From Citreicoccus inhibens (GTDB lineage: Bacteria; Myxococcota; Myxococcia; Myxococcales; Myxococcaceae): a DNA stretch of 64,000 bases. This document shows, piece after piece, positions 6,719 through 18,814 of this stretch. The first letter of the stretch is position 1. Every line of letters begins with the position of its first letter. The notes beneath the pieces were generated by a model, which saw only the letters and a list, made by a program, of their open reading frames with translations, was not told where the DNA came from and searched no databases. The stretch is taken from assembly GCF_019039035.1 (NCBI RefSeq), contig NZ_JAHNZT010000006.1, forward strand, positions 248,001 to 312,000, written 5' to 3'. The position numbers and the translations under genes were made by a program.

Positions 6719-7630
6719 TCAGGCGACCGTGCCCTGCCGCCGCGCGCGCCACCAATCCCACGCCGCGGTGCCCACGTCCGAGGCCAACACGCCCGTGAGG
6801 ATGAGGCCACCGCCCAGCACCTCGCGCGCGCCCAGCACCTCGTAGCCGAGCGCCACCGAATAGCAGGCAGCGAACACGGGCTCCATCGCGTAGATGAGCG
6901 ACGCGCGCACCGCCGTGGTGCGCGCCTGTGCCCACGTCTGCACGCTGATGGCCAGCGCGCTGGCGAGCACGCCGCACACCAGCACCGCGCCCACGAAGGA
7001 CGGCGTCCACGTCACCGAGCGATGCACGAACGGCAGGCACGCCGCCGACATCAGCGACACGCCCCAGAGCTGCACCGCCACCAGCCCCATCACGCCTTCC
7101 TTGGGCGCGTAGCGCTCGGTGAGGGTGATGTGGCCCGCGTATGCCACCGCGCACCCGAGCGTCAGCAGGTCGCCCCGAGAGAAGCCCGACACGCCCGAGC
7201 CCGCGTCCGGCCGCGTCAGCGCGTACATGCCCACCGCCGCCAGCGCCGCGCCCACCAGCGAGCCCACGCGCGGCACGCGGCGGAACAGCACCAGCGACAA
7301 CAGCGGAACGAACAGCACGCACATCCCCGTGATGAAGGCCGAGCGAGACGGCGTCGTCTCGGTCAGCCCCACCGTCTGGAGCGCGAAGCCCGCGAACAAC
7401 AGCGTGGCGAGCTGCGCGCCGTGGCGCAGGTTGCGAGGCCGCAGCACCTCGCGGCCCGACAGCGCGCTCAACAGCAGCGCGCCCACCGCGAAGCGCAGCG
7501 CGAGGAACGAGAAGGGGTCGCTGAAGCCCAGCGCGTCCTTCACCACCACGAAGGTGACGCCCCACAGCGCGGTGATGAGCGCCAACGCGCCATCCGCCTG
7601 GAGGCGCCCCGCGCCCGAGGCGCTTTGCAC
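6719..7630 (-). CDS. EamA-family DMT transporter
   Basis: A 303-residue integral inner-membrane protein of the drug/metabolite transporter superfamily with two EamA repeats, about ten hydrophobic segments in all. The first repeat starts ALALITALWGVTFVVVK, and the loop GLTETTPSRSAFITG precedes helix 4, both typical of the family. The second repeat begins near residue 150. It starts with GTG. The transported solute cannot be predicted. It lies between the nuclease and the Ca2+/H+ exchanger on the same strand, separated by 37-72 bp, so the three may be one transcript. Confidence 0.9.
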   Translation of the reverse strand: MQSASGAGRLQADGALALITALWGVTFVVVKDALGFSDPFSFLALRFAVGALLLSALSGREVLRPRNLRHGAQLATLLFAGFALQTVGLTETTPSRSAFITGMCVLFVPLLSLVLFRRVPRVGSLVGAALAAVGMYALTRPDAGSGVSGFSRGDLLTLGCAVAYAGHITLTERYAPKEGVMGLVAVQLWGVSLMSAACLPFVHRSVTWTPSFVGAVLVCGVLASALAISVQTWAQARTTAVRASLIYAMEPVFAACYSVALGYEVLGAREVLGGGLILTGVLASDVGTAAWDWWRARRQGTVA

Positions 7631-7667: not shown

Positions 7668-8822
7668 CTAGGGGATGAAATAGAAGGTGACGCCGAGGAT
7701 GGCGTAGACGCCGAGCAGCATCACGCCTTCGAGCCAGTTGGACTCGCCATCCAGCGCGATGAGCGTCCCGGCGCCCACGCCGATGGCCATGCCCAACACC
7801 TCCATGTGGCTGAACTCCAGCGTCAGCGGCTGGCCCAGCGGAATGGAGAGCAGCACCAGCACCGGCGCCACGAAGAGGGCGATCTGCTTCGAGGACTCGA
7901 ACGCGATGTTGAACGCCAGGTCCATCTTGTTCTTCAACGACATGATGATGGCGGTGGAGTGCTCGGCCGCGTTGCCCACGATGGCGATGATGATGACGCC
8001 CACGAACGTGTGCGTGAACCCGAACGTGGCGATGGCCGGCTCGATGGCGTGCACCAGGAACTCGGCCACCACGACGACGCCGAGCGTGGCGCCGAGCAGG
8101 ACCGCGGAGGCCTTCCGGGTGCCCCAGGTCGGCAGCTCCTCGGGCGTGCCGTGGTCCTCGCCCGCGTACAGGTGCGCGTGCGTGCGCAGCGCGAACAGCA
8201 GCGACAGCGCGTAGACGATGAGCAGGATGACGGAGATGGCCACCGACATCGGGAAGATGACCGGGTCGGCCGCGGGCCCGCGCACCGCGTGGAACAGGTC
8301 CGGGATGGCCATGGCGGTGAGCGCCAGGAACATGATGGCCGAGCCGGACAGGGCCGCCGTCGTATTGAACGTCTGCTTGGGGAACTTCAGCCCCCCCGCG
8401 AGGATGGCCGCGCCCAGCACCAGCAGGATGTTGCCCAGGATGGCGCCGGTGATGGACGCCTTCACCACGTCCGCGTGGCCCGAGCGCAGCGCCGCCAGCG
8501 CGATGATGAGCTCGGCGGCGTTGCCGAACGATGCGTTCATCAGGCCGCCCAGGCCGCTGCCCAGTTTGTGGGCGATGACCTCGGTGGCCTCCCCCATCAG
8601 CCGCGCCAGCGGGACGAGCGCCACCGCGCACAGGATGAACGTCCAGGTGCCCGGGAAGAGGAAGTGCGAGGCGACCGCGAGGGGGAAGAACACCACCAGC
8701 ATCCCCATGAAGACGCGGTCGGTGGTGAGCCACGCGCCGCGCTCCTGCTCGGGGGCAGGGGCGCCAGACGGCGGGGGCGTCACGGAAGACAGCGGTGGGG
8801 TCGCGGAAGCGGGCGTGCTCAC
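7668..8822 (-). CDS. cax: Calcium/proton exchanger, CaCA superfamily
   Basis: Exports Ca2+ in exchange for H+ at the inner membrane. The 384-residue protein has a Pro-rich cytoplasmic N-terminus (about 35 residues), then about eleven hydrophobic segments in two halves. Each half carries the family repeat: GEATEVIAHKLG with NASFGNAAELI in the first, and IVGNAAEHSTAI in the second, whose acidic residues form the ion site. An acidic linker (about residues 215-235) separates the halves. The start is a GTG; no ATG occurs before the first helix. It is 78 bp downstream of the S24/S26-GNAT gene of the peptide operon and may receive read-through from it. Confidence 0.93.
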   Translation of the reverse strand: MSTPASATPPLSSVTPPPSGAPAPEQERGAWLTTDRVFMGMLVVFFPLAVASHFLFPGTWTFILCAVALVPLARLMGEATEVIAHKLGSGLGGLMNASFGNAAELIIALAALRSGHADVVKASITGAILGNILLVLGAAILAGGLKFPKQTFNTTAALSGSAIMFLALTAMAIPDLFHAVRGPAADPVIFPMSVAISVILLIVYALSLLFALRTHAHLYAGEDHGTPEELPTWGTRKASAVLLGATLGVVVVAEFLVHAIEPAIATFGFTHTFVGVIIIAIVGNAAEHSTAIIMSLKNKMDLAFNIAFESSKQIALFVAPVLVLLSIPLGQPLTLEFSHMEVLGMAIGVGAGTLIALDGESNWLEGVMLLGVYAILGVTFYFIP

Positions 8823-8900: not shown

Positions 8901-9881
8901 TCAGTCCTCGAACACCCGCTCGAGGACGACCAGGCGCTTGCTCCCTCCCGCCGCGTCCCATTCCTGGTTCGTGCGCTGGGTAAGCGAGGGCGGGGCCGGA
9001 CGAAAGCCCAGCCCGCGAAAAGTCCGCAGCGAGGCCGTGTTGTCCTCGTCGATGTCCGCCCGGACGCGGTCCGCGCCCTGCCGCCGCGCCTCGTCCAGCA
9101 GGCAGCGCACCAGCCCGGAGGCCACCCCCATCCGCCGCGCGCGGGGCGCCACCACCAGCGAGCGCACCCACAGGCCCTCCAGGGCCAGCCCCTCCTGCCG
9201 GTAGTCGTCCACCCAGGCGAAGCCGTGCAGGCGCCCCGAGTCGTCGAAGGCGCCGACCGCCGCTCCCGCGCGCTCCTCGGGCCTCAGCCCCCATCGCTCG
9301 CGAAGCTGGCGACGCAGGAAGCTGGCGGACACCACCAGCCCTTCGCCCGCGAAGACGAGCAGCGCGTCCAGGTCCTCCTCCCGCAACAGGCGCACCGACA
9401 GCGTCCCCACGAAGAGGCGCCGCAGCGGAAGCGACCAGCCGGAGAAGAAGAAGTCGCGCACGTGCCGGTAGACTACCCGGGCTCGGGGCCGCGCCCAGAT
9501 GGCGGAAAGGCCCCGGTGTGCCAGCCACAACGCGGGCCGGGAGGGCCGGGGCAACGGCAACACCACCCTCCCCCGCCGCACCGCCACCACGCGCCCGAGC
9601 GGCTCCCCCCCTGGCGGGTCCAGGTTCCCCAGCAACGACGCCGTCGTCCAAGGTTCGGTGGAGCACACCACGTGCGCGGTGAGCTGCCGCCCGCGCCGCA
9701 CCAGGGCCACGTCCCCGGGCGCCAGGGACTCCATGCCGCAGCGCTGCACCCGGACCGCGTCGCCGCTGCGCAGGAGCGGGTACAGGCTCCGCCCCGCGCC
9801 GCGCACCCAGAGGCGGTGGCCATGGGGCAGCGTGTCCAGCAGGTCCAGGAGGGCGTCAGCGGCCGGAGGCTGTCGTGCCAT
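8901..9881 (-). CDS. S24/S26 signal-peptidase-like domain fused to a GNAT acetyltransferase
   Basis: A 326-residue two-domain protein. Residues about 22-105 look like the S24/S26 peptidase fold: GRSLYPLLRSGD (Ser32, matching GxSMxP), LAPGDVALV, TAHVV (His70) and GRVVAV. The TKGD segment that supplies the Lys in LexA-like members reads SLLGNL here, so only a Ser/His arrangement is possible and activity is uncertain. Residues about 160-326 are a GNAT domain with the acetyl-CoA loop RARRMGVASGL and a late NTASLRTFRGLGF. The gene overlaps the HprK-like gene by 26 bp, so the two are translationally coupled. In context it could trim or acetylate the operon's 49-residue peptide; this is inference. 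Confidence 0.8.
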   Translation of the reverse strand: MARQPPAADALLDLLDTLPHGHRLWVRGAGRSLYPLLRSGDAVRVQRCGMESLAPGDVALVRRGRQLTAHVVCSTEPWTTASLLGNLDPPGGEPLGRVVAVRRGRVVLPLPRPSRPALWLAHRGLSAIWARPRARVVYRHVRDFFFSGWSLPLRRLFVGTLSVRLLREEDLDALLVFAGEGLVVSASFLRRQLRERWGLRPEERAGAAVGAFDDSGRLHGFAWVDDYRQEGLALEGLWVRSLVVAPRARRMGVASGLVRCLLDEARRQGADRVRADIDEDNTASLRTFRGLGFRPAPPSLTQRTNQEWDAAGGSKRLVVLERVFED

Positions 9882-10629
9882 GCGCCACCCACTCCGCGAG
9901 GAGGCCCGCCACCGCCACGTCCTTGCGGAAGGCGAGCCGGAAGCCCGGCACCTCGGCCACCACCGCGCCCACGGCGGTCAGCACCCGAGGCCCCGGCTCC
10001 AGGTCCGCCACCGCGCGGAACCGCTGGCCCAACAGCGCCGCGAGCAGCTCCGACGAGGCCACGGGCGTCAGCCGCTCGGTGGGGGCCTTCTCCAGCAAGA
10101 GCAGGGCGTGCGCGCGGGCCTCGGCGCGCGAGGCGGCCAGGTCCGGCTCGGACGAGAAGGGACTGCCCAGCACACGGCCCCCGGGCAACAGCGCCACCAG
10201 CTCATCCGACAGCAACGCCGCGCCTGCTTGGAGGCACAGCCGAGACAGGGTGGACTTGCCCGCGCCGCTCGGCCCCAGCGCCACGAGCGCCGCGTCCCCG
10301 AAGACCACGCCCGCGCCGTGGGCGCAGAAGCCGCCCTGACGCAGCACCGCGAGCTGGAACAGGGCGCGCAGGGCGAACTCGGCCGGGAAGGTGGAGAGCG
10401 GCGCGGAGGTGCGCAGCGTGTCCCGCTCCAGCGCGAAGCCACCGAGGTCGGGGCGCTCGCGTTGGAAGAGGTGCCCGCCCGGGCTCAACGCGTCGTCGCG
10501 CCGGAGCCACAGGGTGGGGCGGGACTCGGACCCCACGAGAAAGGGGCCCGCCTGACATCGCGGCCGCGCCGCGTCGAGGAGCGCGTCATCGACGTCACAG
10601 ACGCACTCGCCGATGCGCAGCCGCGCCAT
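9856..10629 (-). CDS. HprK-like serine kinase (peptide-cluster type)
   Basis: A 257-residue P-loop protein related to the C-terminal kinase domain of HPr kinase/phosphorylase. It has HGAGVVF (104-110), Walker A GPSGAGKST (119-127) and LLSDELVAL (139-147), equivalent to the second acidic motif of HprK. There is no HprK N-terminal domain and no PTS gene nearby. Homologues of this kind occur with PqqD-type proteins and small precursors; in paeninodin-type lasso clusters such a kinase phosphorylates the precursor C-terminus. The ATG at 10629 has gagg 8-11 bases upstream and sits 9 bp after the peptide gene. The likely substrate is the adjacent peptide, but that is inference. Confidence 0.85.
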   Translation of the reverse strand: MARLRIGECVCDVDDALLDAARPRCQAGPFLVGSESRPTLWLRRDDALSPGGHLFQRERPDLGGFALERDTLRTSAPLSTFPAEFALRALFQLAVLRQGGFCAHGAGVVFGDAALVALGPSGAGKSTLSRLCLQAGAALLSDELVALLPGGRVLGSPFSSEPDLAASRAEARAHALLLLEKAPTERLTPVASSELLAALLGQRFRAVADLEPGPRVLTAVGAVVAEVPGFRLAFRKDVAVAGLLAEWVAHGTTASGR

Positions 10630-10638
10630 GCCAGGTCC

Positions 10639-10788
10639 TCAGTTGCAGGCGGGGCGCGGATCGTAAACGGGGTCGCAGTCGAGCGGGCGGCTCACCGTGA
10701 ACAGGTCCGAGACGAGCAGCTTCTCGGACCGCACCTGGGGTGGGCGGTAGGGCTTCTTCTGGGACGGCGCCTTCGGTTCCGACCTCAT
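10639..10788 (-). CDS. 49-residue precursor-like peptide of a putative RiPP system
   Basis: A short gene encoding MRSEPKAPSQKKPYRPP onward, 49 residues. The Lys/Pro-rich first half contains Y14-x-x-P17-x-V19, like the YxxPxL leader motif read by PqqD-type recognition domains in lasso-peptide systems. The second half (from about T31) has Cys38 and Cys48, a DPxYDPRP stretch and a terminal Asn. The ATG has an aagggg site whose first bases overlap the TAA of the giant lipoprotein gene, ten bases upstream, showing tight coupling. It has no signal peptide. No lasso cyclase or transglutaminase-type leader protease lies next to it, so the final product is unknown. An alternative is a small structural partner of the lipoprotein. 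Confidence 0.72.
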   Translation of the reverse strand: MRSEPKAPSQKKPYRPPQVRSEKLLVSDLFTVSRPLDCDPVYDPRPACN

Positions 10789-10798
10789 GGGTGCCCCC

Positions 10799-13700
10799 TT
10801 AATACCAGACCGTGATCTTGCCCGGCGTGTCGAACGGGTCACCCGCCGCCACGTCCACGGCGCCGTCGCCGTTGAAGTCGCCCAGCGCCAGCCCCGAGCC
10901 GAGCGACTTGATGCCCTTGAAGCGCGCCTGCGCGAAGCCGTCTCCCGCCACGGCGTCGAAGGGCATGGGCCCCGAGGCGCCGTGGTACAGCACCCACACC
11001 GACGAGCCCGCCGTGGCGGCCTCGCTCACCACCAGGTCCGGCAGCGAGTCGCCGTTGAGGTCCGCGCTCGCCAGCACGTAGCCGAAGAAGCGCGCCCCGG
11101 ACACGCTGGCGTCATCCGCCACCTGGAGGCTGTAGGCCGGCTGCGCGCTGAACCCGGCCGTGGTGCCGTCCAGATAGAAGTTCACCCGGTTCACGCTCGG
11201 CTGGGACACCACGAGGTCCACCGCCGCCGTGCCTCCAAAGTTGCTGGCGCCCACCACGTCCACGCCGAAGCCGTTGGGGCCACCGCCGCCGGGAGCGCCC
11301 AGCGTCAGCGTCTGGAGCGCCTCGGTGGCGAGCAGCGTGCGGTCCGCCACGTTCGGTCCGGAGCGAGACAGCAGCAGGCTGCCCCGGAAGATGTAGACGA
11401 GGTTGAACTTGTCGTTGGGCACGGACAGGGACAGCTCAGGGTGTCCGTCGCCGTCCAGGTCGCCCACGCTCGCCTGTCCGCGCCGCCGGCCGAACAGCGT
11501 GGACGTCGCGGGCGTGATGGGGGCCTCGGTGCCCTCGATGATGCGGTCCGCCGAGTCCATGGGGATGAAGGGCACGTTGTCCGCTTCGTGTCCGGTCGCG
11601 ACGGCCAGCCAGTCCGCGCGCGAGCGCCCGAAGAAGAGGAACATGCGCCCGCGCCCGCCGTTCTCGCCGTCCGCGCTGAGCAGCACCTCACCCAGGCCGT
11701 CGCCGTTGAGGTCCGGGAGGATGCGCACGGCCCAGCCCAGGTTGGTGGCGCCGACGCCCGCGTGGCCTCGGAACTCCACCGGCGTGGGGTCCACCGGCTG
11801 ATTGGCCCGGCCGAAGTACAGGAACGCGCGGCCTCGGAACGCGGACCAGCGGGGCGAGCCGACCAGCACGTCCGGCCGCCGCTCGTTGGTCGCGTCGCCC
11901 ACGTTGCCCACGGCCACCTCGGTGCCGAAGTACTGCTGCGCCTCGGAGGTGGGCGGCAGCAGCACCTGCGGCGCGGCGCTCGCGTTGGTCGCGTCGTAGT
12001 AGATGTACACGCCGCCCATGTCCGCGGTGCCCGACGAGGCGTTTCGGAAGTTGCCCGCCACCAGGTCATCCCGGCCATCGCCGTTGAGGTCGCCGCTGGC
12101 GAGCGCCGAGCCGAAGATGCCCAGCGTCGCGGTGGGGTTGGTCAACGTCGTCGCGTGCGAGTTGACCAGCGCGGGGATGGTGCGCGGCTCGGAGAGGTTG
12201 CCCACCTCGTCGCGCGCGCGGACCTCGATGAAGTACGTGGCCAGCGGCGGCAGCGTGAGCCGCCGCGAGGTGTCGCTCGCGGGCAGCAGGCCGCCGGTCT
12301 CCTGCCGGACCTTGTTGCTGTACCACGTCGTCTCGTTCGGGATGCCGCCCGGCAGCTGCGTCTCGGTCGTCCACCGCAAGTCATAGCCGGCGGGCATGCC
12401 GGACACGCCGTCGTCGCCGCTGGCCGTCCACGCCACGTCCACCTGGGCCTTGCGCTCCGCGCCGCTGACGAGCGTGCGCGTCACCGAGACCTGCGCCGGG
12501 GGCACCACGTCCACCACCGCGGTCACCGTGCGCACCGCCGTGTTGCCGGCGCGGTCCCTCACACGAAGCTCCAGCGAGCCACTGGTGTCATGCGGCAGCA
12601 CCAGGCGCACCGTCTGCGGCTGCCCGTCCTGCGCCACGCTCGCCGAGGTGGAGACCGGCTGGCCCCGGTAGAAGAACTGGAACGCGCCGCCCACGGCCCC
12701 GGCCACCGTCACGTCGAAGTCCGCCTCGGCGTCGCCGCCCGGCGAGACGTCCTTCACGTAGCCCGCCTCGGGCGTGGGGAAGAGGTGCGCGTTGGACGCG
12801 GCCACGAAGGTGAGCTGGGTCGCGGGCGGAGACACCGTCGAGATGGTCGGCGGCGTGATGTCCACCGTGTAGTCGACGAAGTCGGAGGTGTGGTTGTTGT
12901 TGGCATCCACCATCTCCACGCTCAGGCGCCCTTGCTCGCCGTCCGCCAGCGTCACGGGGAAGGCGAAGTCGCCGGAGCTGGCGTTCGCGAGCGTGGTGCC
13001 CACCGCGACCGCCGGCGTGCCCTTGAGCAGCGACACGGTGCGGCCCGCGCAGCGCGTGGTGTGGCCGCGCACGGTGAACTGGAGCCCGGGCGTGCCCGGA
13101 GCCTCGTCGTCCGCTTGGATGAAGTCGCGCACGGCGTCCGCTGGTGAGGTGAGCGCCACGTCACAGCCCACCAGGTGGACATCCACCCCGGCGGCGCTGG
13201 CGGCGCCGCGGTTGCCCGCGGGGTCATCCACCTCCACCGTCACGTCCTGCCGTCCATCCGGGAAGTTGAGCGTCCCCAGGGCCACGCCCTGGGACACCGT
13301 CAGCGCGCCCACCTGGACGCGCGTGCCGCTCCCCTCGGGCGTCGAGTAGACGCGCGCGGTCAGCCCGTCTCCGCCCTGCACTGCCACGCGCACGGGGACG
13401 AGCGCCGAGTCGGACTGCTGGCCCGGAGTGGGGCTCTCCAGCGAGAGCACCGGCGCCTCCAGGTCCACCGTCACGGTGCGCGTCACCGCCGCGCTGGGGT
13501 TGCCCGCGGTGTCGCGAGCCGTGACAGTCAGCGTGTACGTCTGCGTGCCCGACGCCGGCACGGTGAAGTCATGCGTCACCGCGCGGCCCGAGGGCGTGAG
13601 CGACACCGGCGTGAGTCCTGGCTCCAGCGTGAAGAGGACGCCGTCCGCGCCCACGTCCGCGCTGGTCAACATGCTGACGCGGAGCTGGTAGCCCGAGGCC

Positions 13701-16681
13701 GTTGGATCCGCGTCCTGCGCGGGCCCCAGCGTGGCGCCCACCGCGGGCGCGCTGACGTTGACCGTGGGCGGCACGCGGTCCACGCGGAAGTCCGTCAGCG
13801 CCGCCGCGTTGAGCGGATCCAACGGGTTGGGCGGGTTGGCCGGCACCGTGCGGTTCACGTTGCCCACCGTGTCCGTGAGCACCACCACGAGCGACGCATC
13901 CGCCTCGGAGAGCGAGGCCAGCGCCGTGAGGGTGACGTCCGTCCGCGAGCCCGTGGAGGCCGCCTGTCCCAGGAGCGCGAGCGACCGCGCGTCACGCACC
14001 TGCACGGGCCGCCCATGCTCCAGCCCCGTGGTGGACACGCGCACCACCGGCGCGCCGCTGGGAGACTCAGCCAGGTTCAGGATGCGGTCGCCGTTGGCGT
14101 CCCCGACGAACTCGAGCGCCGTCACCTCCGGACGCGAGCCGTCCACGCGCAGCGTCACCGGCGCGGACTCGGCCGTGCGGCCCGCGTCATCCAGCACCAC
14201 CTTCAGCGAGTACTGACCATCCGGGTACGAGAAGCGTGTGGTGTCCGGCGGCAGCGACGACGCCAGGGTGAACCAGCCGCTGCCATCACGGCACGGCGTG
14301 CGGTCCACGGTGAGCGCGATGTCCGTGCACACGTCCACCACGGCCGACGACGACGCGCCGTTGAGCGTGAAGGACAATGGGCGCTGGATGCCCGGCGTGG
14401 CGGGATCCTGGTCCTCGTTCAGCGAGTACTGCGTGGAGGCCCCCGGCGCGGTGAGCGCGATGGCCTCGGGCGTGGTGTCCAGCGTGTAGAGCGCGCTGGC
14501 GCAGGCCCCGGCGCCCGCGGTGTTGGTGAGCACCGCGCGCAACACGTTGACGCCCTCGCGCAGCGTCACGGCCGTGAACGTCTTCTTCACCTCCGCGGAG
14601 GCCACGTCCATCGAGCCCACCTCCGTGGTGTCGCGGTACAGCTTCAGCACGCCCGAGACGCCCTCGCCGAACGCGAGCGTCATGGGCACCGACAGCCCAC
14701 CCGTCACCGCCGTGCCGTCCGCGGGGCCCAGCGTCCGATTCGGATCCGGCGCCGAGAACGACAGCGAGGACTGCGCGAAGGCGGACGCCACCGCCACCGT
14801 CTGCGTGGCTGAGTTGCCCGCGGGGTCCACCGCGCGCACCGTCAGGGTGCACGTCCCCGTCGCCGGGATGGAGATGCCGCGCAGCGTGGCCACTCCCGCG
14901 CCGTTGGCGACCGCGGACGCGGTGCCCGTCAGGCCACAGCCATCCACGAACACCTGCGCATCCGCGTCCGTCGTCACGTCCAGCACCACCTGCATGCCGG
15001 GCAGCACGGACGTGTCGACGAAGTCCGCCCCGATGCGGCCGTCCACCGCGTCACGCACGGTGGCCGTCAGCGCGGGCTTCGCCGTGTCGCGCCGCGAGAC
15101 GATGCGCTGGCTGCGCCCGCCGCCCGCGCACGAGGCCACCAAACTCCAGGCCCCATCCTGGGTCAGCGGCGCGGTGAGCGTCGCGGCGCCACCCGAGGCC
15201 GTGGCGGACACGCTGGTGGCCGTGCCGTCCGGCGCCACCTGCGCCAGCGTCACCGCGCCGTTGGGCGCATCCACGCGGACCGCCACCGAGTTGCCCGTGA
15301 CGAACTCGCGCGCGGCCGGCTCCACGATGCGGCAGGTGGAGCGCCCCATCTGCACGGACACCGTCGTGGGCTGCGAGCAGGTCTGCAGGCCCGCTGAATT
15401 GCGCACACACGCCTTCACGGTGTTGGCGCCCTCGGCCAGGTCCAACTGGAACGCCGCCACCCGGTCCGCGCCGCTCGCCACCGTCGCCACGCGCAGCGGC
15501 TGCCCCAGCCGGCTCGTCACCGTGGTCCACAGCTCCACGTCCGTGCCCACCGGCAGCCCGTTCACCTTCACGCTCGCCGGCGCCTGCACACCGTCCGCGG
15601 CGTCGCCGTTGGCATCGCTCGTCACCACCGCGGGCACGTCCAACGTGAGCACCGGCACCGCGCTCGCGACCACCACCTGAAGGGGCTGCTCGGTGACGTT
15701 GCCGCCCGAGTCCGTCAACCGCAGCCGGAAGTCGAAGGTGCCATCCCCCGGCACGGTGACGGCGGTGAACGTCACGGCGCCGGCGCGCACCTGCGTCTGC
15801 ACCGCGTCCGCGCCCTCGCGCGACAACACCGCCGTGCTGCCATCCTCCACCGAGCGCACCACCGCCACCACGTCGAAGGTGGGGCTGGCCACCGGAGCCA
15901 CCGGCGAGGCCACCACCAGCCGGGGCGCCTCGGTGTCCAGCGTGAAGCCGCGCGGCGCGGACGTCACGTCGCCCGTGGCCCGCTTGAGCACCGCGGTGCA
16001 GCGCGCGAGCTGCGCCTCCCGCACGGGCTCGGTGAGCGTGGCCACCACGGTGGCGCTGCCGTCCTGGCCCAGCGTGAAGGGCACGGGCGCAAGTCCGCAC
16101 ACGCCCGCGCACGAGAGGAGGCCGCTGGCGCCGCGCAGCGCGGTGCCCTTCAGCCCGAAGCGAACCTGATAGCCCGGCGTGGCGGGGTCGGCGTCATCCA
16201 CCTCGCGCAGCACCTGCCCCTCGGCGGGCGAGGTGAGGTCCACGCTGGGCACCTCGGTGCCCACCGCCACGGAGACCGTCTGCGTGGCCGTTCGCCGCGA
16301 GCCCGACTCCTCCACCGTCACGCGCAGCACGCTGGTGCGCAGCGGCAGCGTGACCGACGCGAAGCGCACCTTGGCGCCTTCGATGCGCGCGGCCGGTCCC
16401 GCGGTCCAGGTCTGCTCACTGCCGGCGCGCACCTCCAGCTTCGCGCTCGCGAGCGTCACCTCGCGGCCCGCCGTGTCGCGGCCCACCGCCACCACGTCCT
16501 GCTGGAAGCCATCCGTGCCGGGGTCCGCATCCTCGTCGAGCGCCAGCCGCTGCCCGTCCGTGGGGGACTCGAAGGCCACCGCGAGCTGTGACTCGACGGG
16601 CGGCTCGCCGCCGCAGGAACACCCGGAGATCCACACCGCGGCCATCGCCGCCAGCAAGCCAGTCCAAGTCGCTCGATGCAT
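10799..16681 (-). CDS. Giant lipoprotein with Ig-like repeats, Fn3-like domain and FG-GAP propeller (1960 aa)
   Basis: The signal peptide ends in ISGCS, giving lipidated Cys21, so the protein is probably displayed on the outer membrane. Residues from about 30 to 1400 are tandem Ig-like (Big/CARDB-type) beta-sandwich modules. At least six begin with a repeated acidic motif of the form SPxxGxxLxxxxDADPxTxGxQ, for example at residues about 32-54 and 150-172. An Fn3-like module follows. The last about 420 residues hold about seven FG-GAP/integrin-alpha blades with Ca2+-binding loops such as DLNGDGRDDLVAG, DLDGDGHPEL and DFNGDGAVDVAAG, which would form a seven-bladed propeller. The start at 16681 is fixed by the signal peptide; longer frames add shadow sequence. 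It lies 5 bp after the PqqD gene, and the peptide gene follows ten bases after its stop. Confidence 0.9.
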   Translation of the reverse strand: MHRATWTGLLAAMAAVWISGCSCGGEPPVESQLAVAFESPTDGQRLALDEDADPGTDGFQQDVVAVGRDTAGREVTLASAKLEVRAGSEQTWTAGPAARIEGAKVRFASVTLPLRTSVLRVTVEESGSRRTATQTVSVAVGTEVPSVDLTSPAEGQVLREVDDADPATPGYQVRFGLKGTALRGASGLLSCAGVCGLAPVPFTLGQDGSATVVATLTEPVREAQLARCTAVLKRATGDVTSAPRGFTLDTEAPRLVVASPVAPVASPTFDVVAVVRSVEDGSTAVLSREGADAVQTQVRAGAVTFTAVTVPGDGTFDFRLRLTDSGGNVTEQPLQVVVASAVPVLTLDVPAVVTSDANGDAADGVQAPASVKVNGLPVGTDVELWTTVTSRLGQPLRVATVASGADRVAAFQLDLAEGANTVKACVRNSAGLQTCSQPTTVSVQMGRSTCRIVEPAAREFVTGNSVAVRVDAPNGAVTLAQVAPDGTATSVSATASGGAATLTAPLTQDGAWSLVASCAGGGRSQRIVSRRDTAKPALTATVRDAVDGRIGADFVDTSVLPGMQVVLDVTTDADAQVFVDGCGLTGTASAVANGAGVATLRGISIPATGTCTLTVRAVDPAGNSATQTVAVASAFAQSSLSFSAPDPNRTLGPADGTAVTGGLSVPMTLAFGEGVSGVLKLYRDTTEVGSMDVASAEVKKTFTAVTLREGVNVLRAVLTNTAGAGACASALYTLDTTPEAIALTAPGASTQYSLNEDQDPATPGIQRPLSFTLNGASSSAVVDVCTDIALTVDRTPCRDGSGWFTLASSLPPDTTRFSYPDGQYSLKVVLDDAGRTAESAPVTLRVDGSRPEVTALEFVGDANGDRILNLAESPSGAPVVRVSTTGLEHGRPVQVRDARSLALLGQAASTGSRTDVTLTALASLSEADASLVVVLTDTVGNVNRTVPANPPNPLDPLNAAALTDFRVDRVPPTVNVSAPAVGATLGPAQDADPTASGYQLRVSMLTSADVGADGVLFTLEPGLTPVSLTPSGRAVTHDFTVPASGTQTYTLTVTARDTAGNPSAAVTRTVTVDLEAPVLSLESPTPGQQSDSALVPVRVAVQGGDGLTARVYSTPEGSGTRVQVGALTVSQGVALGTLNFPDGRQDVTVEVDDPAGNRGAASAAGVDVHLVGCDVALTSPADAVRDFIQADDEAPGTPGLQFTVRGHTTRCAGRTVSLLKGTPAVAVGTTLANASSGDFAFPVTLADGEQGRLSVEMVDANNNHTSDFVDYTVDITPPTISTVSPPATQLTFVAASNAHLFPTPEAGYVKDVSPGGDAEADFDVTVAGAVGGAFQFFYRGQPVSTSASVAQDGQPQTVRLVLPHDTSGSLELRVRDRAGNTAVRTVTAVVDVVPPAQVSVTRTLVSGAERKAQVDVAWTASGDDGVSGMPAGYDLRWTTETQLPGGIPNETTWYSNKVRQETGGLLPASDTSRRLTLPPLATYFIEVRARDEVGNLSEPRTIPALVNSHATTLTNPTATLGIFGSALASGDLNGDGRDDLVAGNFRNASSGTADMGGVYIYYDATNASAAPQVLLPPTSEAQQYFGTEVAVGNVGDATNERRPDVLVGSPRWSAFRGRAFLYFGRANQPVDPTPVEFRGHAGVGATNLGWAVRILPDLNGDGLGEVLLSADGENGGRGRMFLFFGRSRADWLAVATGHEADNVPFIPMDSADRIIEGTEAPITPATSTLFGRRRGQASVGDLDGDGHPELSLSVPNDKFNLVYIFRGSLLLSRSGPNVADRTLLATEALQTLTLGAPGGGGPNGFGVDVVGASNFGGTAAVDLVVSQPSVNRVNFYLDGTTAGFSAQPAYSLQVADDASVSGARFFGYVLASADLNGDSLPDLVVSEAATAGSSVWVLYHGASGPMPFDAVAGDGFAQARFKGIKSLGSGLALGDFNGDGAVDVAAGDPFDTPGKITVWY

Positions 16682-16686
16682 GCCCG

Positions 16687-17019
16687 TCACTCCTTGCGTC
16701 GAAGTGGGGACCCGGTTCCCCTCGCCGCGAGCACCAACACCTGCCGCTCCACCAGGAGCGCCACGAAGCGCGCCGTGTCCTGACGACATAGCGCTGGATC
16801 CACGTCGAACTCCTCGCACAGCTGCCGCGAGATGTCCTCCACCGAGCGCTCGCCATCCGCCAGCTCCAGGATGCGCTCAGCGACCTCGGAGGCCCCCGCG
16901 TCATCCTCGAAGGTGTGGAGGAACGTCTCCCCCGGCCCCAGGACCGAGAGCACGCCCCGCGAGCGCACGGAGACGGCGTCGGGGTGCAGTCGGGGCACCG
17001 CGCTCAGCCAGTCGTCCAT
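16687..17019 (-). CDS. PqqD-like RiPP recognition protein
   Basis: A 110-residue protein with the PqqD winged-helix pattern: PRLHPDAVSVRSRG at the start, a strand reading VLSVLGPGE, then AERILELADGERSVEDISRQL and a final FVALLVERQVLVLAARG. PqqD-like proteins bind leader peptides and hand them to modifying enzymes. It heads the operon of lipoprotein, peptide, kinase and S24/S26-GNAT genes, all within 26 bp of one another, so its natural ligand is probably the YxxPxV segment of the 49-residue peptide. No radical-SAM enzyme or other PQQ gene is in the window, which argues against PQQ synthesis. Confidence 0.85.
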   Translation of the reverse strand: MDDWLSAVPRLHPDAVSVRSRGVLSVLGPGETFLHTFEDDAGASEVAERILELADGERSVEDISRQLCEEFDVDPALCRQDTARFVALLVERQVLVLAARGTGSPLRRKE

Positions 17020-17848: not shown

Positions 17849-18814
17849 CTACTTGAGGCCGTGGATGGCCTGGCGCAGCGCGGGGAGCACCTTGAAGAGG
17901 TCCTCCACCAGCCCGTAGTCCGCCACCTGGAAGATGGGGGCCTCCGGGTCCTTGTTGATGGCCACGATGGTCTTCGAGCTCTTCATGCCCGCCAGATGCT
18001 GGATGGCGCCGCTGATGCCCGCCGCGATGTACAGCTGCGGAGCGACGACCTTGCCCGTCTGGCCGACCTGCAAGTCGTTGGGAACCCAGCCGGCGTCGCA
18101 CACCGCGCGCGAGGCACCGACGGCGGCGCCGAGTTCATCGGCCAGCGCCTCGATCTCCTTGAAGTCACCCTTGGTGCCGCGACCACCGGACACCACCACG
18201 CGCGCCTCGGTCAGCTCGGGGCGGGCGCTCTTCACTTCCTTGAAGTCGACGAACTTCGTCTTGGAGGCCTCGACCTTCGCGGCGAAGGTCTTCACCTCGG
18301 CGGCGCCCTGGCCCGTCGCGGCGGCAGGGAACTCCGTGGCGCGCACGGTGAACACCTTCACCGGCGTGGTGAGCTTCACCTCGGCGAAGACGTTGCCGGC
18401 CCACATGGGGCGCGTGAACGTGACGTCCGCGCCCGAGCCGTTGATGGCCATGACGTCGGTGGCCATGGCGGCCTTGAGGCGAGCGGCCACGCGCGGCATC
18501 AGGTCCTTGCCCTGCGCCGTGGAGGCCATGCCCACGTAGTCCGCCTTCAGCTCCTGCGCGAGCGCCGCGATGGCGGGCGCGTAGGTCTCGGCGAGGTAGT
18601 GCTCGAACTCGGGGGCGGCGGCGGTGTGGACCGCCTTGGCGCCGGTGCCCTTGAGCTCCTCGGCCAGCTTCGCGGGGTCCTTGGCGAGCAGCACCAGGTG
18701 CAGCTCCGCGCCGGCCTTGTCGGCCAGGGCCTTGCCCGCGGAGATGGCGTTGAGGGAGGCCTTGCGCAGGTTCCCGTCCGGCTGCTGCTCGGCGACGATG
18801 AGAACGATTGGCAT
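17849..18814 (-). CDS. etfA: Electron transfer flavoprotein alpha subunit
   Basis: Carries FAD and passes electrons from acyl-CoA dehydrogenases to the quinone pool. The 321-residue protein has an N-terminal alpha/beta domain ([17 protein letters not shown]). The conserved C-terminal FAD domain is clear: [23 protein letters not shown] spans the signature (read it from about residue 255), then [16 protein letters not shown]. The length is typical. It lies 55 bp downstream of etfB on the same strand, with acd further upstream, giving the order acd-etfB-etfA. Confidence 0.97.

Follow-up and report, generated by a model that had tools for sequence, protein, structure and literature searches.

Linear Polyphosphorylated Peptides (LPP), encoded by lppAKBSDN of Paenibacillus alginolyticus and published in May 2026, were reported as restricted to the Bacillota and patchy in distribution (PMC13381572). 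In these systems LppK phosphorylates S3 of the core, and LppS, which uses the residues S29, H68 and D93, cuts the leader together with LppB (PMC13381572). The LPP kinase of the Bacillota accepted serine only, and the HprK-like RiPP kinases tested to date leave the phosphate on the peptide (PMC13381572). Discrete recognition elements bind a [Y/W]xxPx[L/V/I/A/F/Y] motif in the precursor (PMC13381572). Phosphorylated lasso peptides of the paeninodin/Bsf type (PMC13381572, PMC10368454) likewise combine a PqqD-type B1 protein, a YxxP/WxxP leader and an HprK-like kinase.

The window analysed here is the whole stretch of 64,000 nucleotides from Citreicoccus inhibens, in which five minus-strand genes (Table 1) are transcribed in the order PqqD, lipoprotein, peptide, kinase and peptidase-acetyltransferase. 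The first-pass annotation had described five minus-strand open reading frames with intergenic gaps of 5 bp (PqqD/lipoprotein), 10 bp (lipoprotein/peptide) and 9 bp (peptide/kinase) and a 26-bp overlap between the kinase and peptidase genes, and these values, like the positions of the genes, were exact. Its proposal that the genes are one unit was borne out by the recurrence of the order and of the small peptide in the family and beyond.

Table 1. Features of the five-gene locus and its flanks, in positions of the window
Feature	Position	Strand	Description
PqqD-like putative recognition element	16687-17019	-	110 aa; PF05402 44.7 bits (cut-off 23.4)
Giant lipoprotein	10799-16681	-	1960 aa; lipobox, Ig-like repeats, C-terminal FG-GAP repeats
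Precursor peptide	10639-10788	-	49 aa; homologues aligned on Tyr
Predicted HprK/PEPCK-fold kinase	9856-10629	-	257 aa; invariant residues, predicted fold
Peptidase-acetyltransferase fusion, whole gene	8901-9881	-	326 aa
Fusion, N-terminal part: Sec11/SipW-type (S26) peptidase	9450-9881	-	S32/H70/D88; SEC11C/SEC11A best profile matches
Fusion, C-terminal part: GNAT acetyltransferase domain	8901-9449	-	PF00583 51.5 bits; fold matches
Ser33 codon, predicted phosphorylation site	10690-10692	-	19 residues past Tyr14
Flank: electron-transfer flavoprotein (etfA)	17849-18814
Flank: Ca2+/H+ exchanger (Cax)	7668-8822
Flank: EamA-type protein	6719-7630

The family profile of the PqqD-like protein matched the solved lasso recognition element TbiB1 (E 1.4e-9), and also TfuB1, PqqD and the chains 9x90_B and 9x8z_B. 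Together with the PF05402 match these profile matches support the recognition role assigned to it earlier, and the protein is probably a discrete RiPP recognition element of the PqqD type, as in LPP systems. Homologues of the peptide were taken next to lipoprotein or kinase genes, and 41 non-redundant sequences were aligned on the leader tyrosine. The leader consensus was [KR][KR]xYxxPx[VLI], which reads KKPYRPPQV in the window peptide (Y14, P17 and V19). Tyrosine at position 0 was scored in 38/41 peptides (L049, one of the three exceptions, does have it), proline at +3 was invariant (41/41), +5 was V, L, I, M or F in 93% and +7 was S or T in 85%; hydrophobic residues were found at +15/+16, and beyond these the sequence is variable. 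A conserved leader joined to a variable core in a ribosomal precursor, as in RiPPs generally and in the LPP precursors with their YxxPxV leader and variable C-terminus, was therefore found over the 41 non-redundant homologues. Judged by its sequence, the myxobacterial leader motif is the one that discrete recognition elements bind (PMC13381572), and it is kept across the phylum. Changes in the peptide genes of genus g16 fall mostly at third codon positions, so the frame is selected as a protein (purifying selection); for the window and its closest relative, dN/dS of the peptide rests on one synonymous change in all. The small ORF is a precursor peptide, and both the RiPP-type precursor with a Y-x-x-P-x-V leader and the conservation of the small frame as protein, which the first-pass annotation had put forward, hold on the retained leader and the third-position bias in g16.

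The kinase carries the P-loop GPSGAGKST and the further residues H104, D142 and E143; across 58 relatives H104 never varies, nor do G124, K125 and T127 of the P-loop, and D142 is almost invariant. An AlphaFold2 model (mean pLDDT 95.7) matched PEPCK and HprK/P structures in the PDB, and a second structural aligner gave PEPCK at Z 13.5 over 234 residues and 4.9 A. The model gives the kinase an HprK/PEPCK fold, and in this predicted fold and its catalytic residues it parallels the HprK-like kinase of LPP systems. By sequence the match to HprK-related models is weak (TIGR04352, E 5e-5): the curated family of HprK-related kinase A (TIGR04352), likewise HprK-like, matches the same P-loop/HG region, but at 22 bits the window kinase stays below its cut-off of 200, which leaves it outside that family. 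The earlier call of an HprK-like kinase is thus confirmed by the fold, though the sequence match is weak. The putative target of this kinase lies just past the leader. Ser or Thr was present within +18 to +20 in 36/41 peptides (14.3 expected) and exactly at +19 in 19/41 (46%, 5.5 expected), the expectations being obtained by shuffling the tail of each peptide, and 0/20,000 tail shuffles reached the wider count; the peptides are related and not independent, so the peak is taken as support and not as a probability. The +19 residue of the window peptide, Ser33, is the candidate phosphosite.

The peptidase-acetyltransferase had been annotated as an S24/S26-GNAT fusion. The S24 match of the peptidase domain is very weak (E 0.24), and the best match of its family profile was the SEC11 signal peptidase (E 6e-7; SEC11C/SEC11A), which outranked bacterial signal peptidase I and LexA. 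Since Sec11-type proteins match better than LexA, the S24 (LexA-like) identity was abandoned, while an S26-like (Sec11/SipW-type) peptidase and a strong GNAT match remain of the earlier label. S32, H70 and D88 of the peptidase are invariant in 23 homologues, giving a Ser-His-Asp peptidase of the SpI/SipW type like the leader peptidase of LPP systems. The probable cleavage region of the window peptide is L29-V32. The fold of the GNAT domain matched N-acetyltransferases, with 4jwp at the top and RimI-type proteins, Ard1 and NAA60 also among the matches. The domain is reduced or missing in several relatives, and the fusion was also found in L129 and L150 (distant family), from which the fusion is considered old and the domain dispensable. 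Modification of the peptide by kinase, peptidase and acetyltransferase, as first suggested from the gene content, is supported by the kinase fold, the catalytic residues of the peptidase and the GNAT match, and appears probable by analogy.

The core of the window peptide contains two cysteines, C38 and C48. The number of core cysteines was even (2, 4, 6 or 8) in 27/27 non-redundant members of the window's family and in 16/16 genera; the common residues P, G, S, T and D were each even in about half of the cores, and the rare K and R in 22/27, most cores having none. Such evenness points to disulfide bonding, and with it to a site outside the cytoplasm. The cores are conserved within one genus and variable between genera. 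Cores with six cysteines were seen in genera g5 and g17 and in L044 (L044, L096, L132-L136, L138 and L139); they begin with LLAC[TS] or similar, and most have the knottin-like spacing C-x5-C-x5..8-CC-x6-C-x3-C. A lipoprotein signal at the LLAC start of the g5/g17 cores was considered and dropped, as the hydrophobic signal segment is absent.

Taken as a whole, the operon would by analogy work like an LPP system with a different set of partners. The first-pass annotation had recognised the arrangement from no described RiPP class; this no longer applies, the core machinery being the LPP core set (PMC13381572), including the lack of a macrolactam cyclase and of a B2 protease. Several features differ. 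The window motif has YxxPxV and a Ser/Thr near +18 to +20 but lacks the LxHQxIxFET of the LPP signature YxxPxVLxHQxIxFETxxS, and no LPP-type precursor (YxxPxVLxHQ) was found among the HprK loci listed. Neither the five genes nor the flanking ones that were inspected include an NTP-transferase (LppN), and the operon has no MsbA-like exporter (LppD), with Cax and EamA only nearby. The window peptidase is fused to GNAT, a giant FG-GAP lipoprotein is obligatory, the cores of the window's family have even cysteine numbers, some relatives add a radical SAM enzyme, and the cassette belongs to a myxobacterium-type phylum in which it is largely vertical, in contrast to the patchy LPP systems. Because the full precursor motif, the NTP-transferase and the exporter are lacking, the operon was not filed as a member of the LPP class. 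EamA was not claimed as the exporter: although it is a frequent neighbour, it shares synteny with housekeeping genes as well.

Other classes fit less of the locus. Unlike the phosphorylated lasso systems, the window operon has no lasso cyclase and no B2 peptidase: neither the five genes nor those immediately next to them encode an asparagine-synthetase-like macrolactam cyclase, and no B2 peptidase (PF13471) scored over the cut-off in the genome, the best being a sub-threshold 22.4 bits (cut-off 26) to a 1412-aa frame on another contig. On these grounds a lasso peptide was rejected, and the earlier remark that no lasso cyclase or exporter is adjacent agreed with the five genes and the neighbours examined. 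A lanthipeptide was rejected on the lack of any LanC-like protein (no PF05147 match) in the genome, and a cofactor precursor (PQQ- or mycofactocin-like) as the main reading on the variability of the core between genera. No description of this cassette in Myxococcota was found in the literature, which was covered in part and so is weak evidence.

We consider it fairly likely, by analogy with the LPP of the Bacillota, that this is a RiPP operon in which leader binding, phosphorylation, cleavage and export are followed by action with the lipoprotein. The PqqD protein would bind the YxxPxV leader of the 49-aa precursor, as its family and the motif indicate. The HprK-like kinase would phosphorylate a Ser/Thr just past the leader, most likely Ser33, in keeping with its fold, its catalytic residues and the positional conservation of the site. 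The Sec11-type Ser-His-Asp peptidase, to which PqqD would present the precursor as in LPP systems, would cut near residues 30-32 and release a core of about 18 residues, and an intact GNAT domain may, more speculatively, acetylate the new N-terminus. The core would then exit the cytoplasm, form a C38-C48 disulfide, as the even cysteine numbers suggest, and act with the co-encoded giant Ig/FG-GAP lipoprotein, for which a bound ligand, a displayed cargo and a receptor pair are proposed as alternatives. Counting against this LPP-like reading are the missing exporter and NTP-transferase, both present in LPP systems, the missing LxHQxIxFET after YxxPxV, the presence of Ser/Thr exactly at +19 in fewer than half of the peptides, Thr at some candidate sites where the kinase of the Bacillota accepted Ser only, and a Pro or acidic residue at the expected cleavage position in several homologues.

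Relatives were found by a kinase search followed by comparison of neighbourhoods, with 96 genomes as the family sample. The five genes are conserved together, as the earlier reading had supposed: the order PqqD-lipoprotein-peptide-kinase-peptidase recurs in many genera and in most of the relatives that carry the cassette. Kinase match scores were bimodal among the 96 family genomes, with the high-scoring type in 37; the matching PqqD type was found in 40/96 and the lipoprotein in 38/96, of which the match in G004 is incomplete and sits at the end of a contig. PqqD, kinase and lipoprotein were all present in 36/96 and all absent in 56/96 (Fisher p 2e-23 for kinase-PqqD co-occurrence), and the genomes that break this all-or-none pattern (G004, G045, G046 and G049) have fragmented assemblies, with 740 to 1260 contigs each. 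Genus g5 carries its kinase gene on a different contig from PqqD and the lipoprotein, yet all are present, so the association exceeds linkage. The set is missing from g38 (16/16 genomes) and g12 (4/4), and a single genome of g23 has it; g23 and g38 are the two largest genera, and the components were lost together in most of their genomes. Beyond the family, the cassette occurs elsewhere in the same order, in families other than that of the window, and also in L118, L129, L149 and L150, which are separated from it at the level of class or phylum. Distances between components tracked those of etfA (Spearman 0.81 for PqqD, 0.83 for the kinase and 0.79 for the lipoprotein; 0/2000 permutations), so inheritance is mainly vertical, and synteny of the cassette with etfA is kept across the phylum. 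Synteny likewise extends to the flanking genes (etfA, Cax, EamA and MBL), and long-lived synteny is by itself no proof of function. In bacteria of the myxobacterium type these five genes form a genuine operon of ancient origin.

The position of etfA directly upstream of the cassette was seen across several families of the phylum, and in several loci the cassette is followed directly by the Ca2+/H+ exchanger, a placement worth recording beside an FG-GAP lipoprotein.

The giant lipoprotein matched FG-GAP and Big_13 and has an SPII signal with a WISGC lipobox (ISGC, Cys21) that is conserved in most of its homologues; MYXO-CTERM domains are encoded in the host genome (9.05 Mb), as would be expected of a myxobacterium. 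Almost every A-type locus, A being the architecture of the window, has the lipoprotein gene between those of PqqD and the peptide. The surface lipoprotein as a constant partner, already proposed at first sight of the locus, is supported by the recurring order and the shared presence and absence, and a dependence on it is suggested by this shared gain and loss, not by contact.

Like A, two further architectures (B and C) contain PqqD, a YxxP peptide and an HprK-like kinase, and an S26-like peptidase is usually present as well. The B-type occurs in the host genome as well (L054, 9855-15195 on contig C46), with an S26-like peptidase, PqqD, a 179-aa probable lipoprotein, a 1024-aa secreted protein that carries a PQQ/BamB-like propeller and an HprK-like kinase, and also in L048, L053, L063, L069 and L070. 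A third PqqD-family gene of the genome (L055, G000:C79:182117-182317) stands in an unrelated context. C-type loci (L066, L067, L119, L122 and L130) encode PqqD, a radical SAM/SPASM enzyme and an HprK-like kinase; their peptides have a YxxPx[IL] leader and a CK...C tail, the tail missing in L067, and the neighbour is a secreted protein of about 1000 aa, with Peptidase_C25 confirmed in L067, L119, L122 and L130 and the L066 protein a cluster mate of that of L067. The radical SAM/SPASM cassettes of L066, L119, L122 and L130 resemble the window in PqqD, the YxxPx[IL] precursor, the kinase and often the S26-like peptidase, whereas the radical SAM enzyme and usually the secreted C25 peptidase replace its FG-GAP lipoprotein.

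A radical SAM gene directly after the kinase was also found in the A-type loci L118, L129, L142, L143, L149 (there fused to a methyltransferase domain) and L150, whose peptides are cysteine-free with a tail of the [YS]G-x-[FY]-[RKQ]-x-x-P type. The peptide of L052 has the same tail type and one Cys, and no radical SAM gene was found at that locus; in L058 and L059 cysteine-containing peptides occur together with a radical SAM enzyme and a large protein or lipoprotein. The link between radical SAM and a cysteine-free core is seen in three families and is not universal. In the kinase tree the A-type kinases from loci without radical SAM form one clade (98/95), and lipoprotein loci with radical SAM scatter outside it on long branches. 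The statement that no radical SAM gene is adjacent is therefore right for the window and fails as a trait of the class, since the cassettes of deeper-branching relatives include the enzyme and its absence at the window is a lineage feature. Outside the phylum (Kiritimatiellae, an unplaced deltaproteobacterium and Anaerolineales), HprK-like kinases were seen near PqqD and YxxP peptides in L071, L072, L074 and L087, three of which have radical SAM.

That the peptide is instead a part of the lipoprotein, modified and then joined to it or tightly bound in it as an equipped adhesin or receptor, is rather unlikely though it draws on the same data: the place of the lipoprotein gene between those of PqqD and the peptide, the match of its presence and absence to PqqD and kinase in the 96 genomes, and the large secreted beta-propeller protein that the related B-type cassettes likewise encode. 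A ligand-receptor pair explains the co-occurrence equally well, however, no ligase or transpeptidase is present in the operon, and no route of the peptide to the outer membrane was found. In its strongest form, a genetically encoded prosthetic peptide, phosphorylated, disulfide-locked and made only to equip the giant beta-propeller surface lipoprotein, this idea is offered tentatively and as an unlikely one. A secreted peptide of defence or competition (bacteriocin-like), for which the lipoprotein would serve as the immunity protein or as a decoy receptor, would suit the variable Cys-rich cores, some with knottin-like spacing in g5/g17, and the adjoining surface lipoprotein gene, but is improbable in view of inheritance that is vertical and not patchy (Spearman 0.79-0.83 against etfA), the etfA synteny kept across the phylum and the conservation of cores within a genus. 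It is more doubtful still that phosphorylation of Ser/Thr is an activation followed by elimination to a Ser/Thr-Cys thioether (lanthionine-like) or other cross-link: in most peptides the Ser/Thr at +18 to +20 has the first core Cys nearby, and the cores are rich in cysteines, but the operon encodes neither a lyase nor a LanC-like cyclase, the genome lacks any LanC-like protein, even cysteines in 27/27 cores fit disulfides better than Ser/Thr-Cys pairing, and tested HprK-like RiPP kinases leave the phosphate in place (PMC13381572). Mere co-location of housekeeping neighbours with an incidental small ORF, for which only the synteny of the flanking etfA, Cax, EamA and MBL genes speaks, is barely credible and is refuted by the co-occurrence (joint loss in most g23 and g38 genomes, pairing kept when unlinked) and by leader conservation across the phylum, with purifying selection on the peptide in g16.

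If the prosthetic peptide were real, the locus would mature its peptide in the service of a surface adhesin or recognition protein and not of a secreted natural product, and the B-type cassettes, which encode a different propeller protein, would provide a second case. On the preferred LPP-like reading, the phosphopeptide logic reported as limited to the Bacillota would extend to a second phylum, in which it would be of long standing, inherited mostly vertically and linked to a single giant surface lipoprotein, and this link would make the question of what such phosphopeptides do directly testable. The cassettes with and without radical SAM, three families in which radical SAM goes with cores free of cysteine, to be set beside the window's family and its paired cysteines, offer material for studying a change of chemistry in a RiPP pathway.
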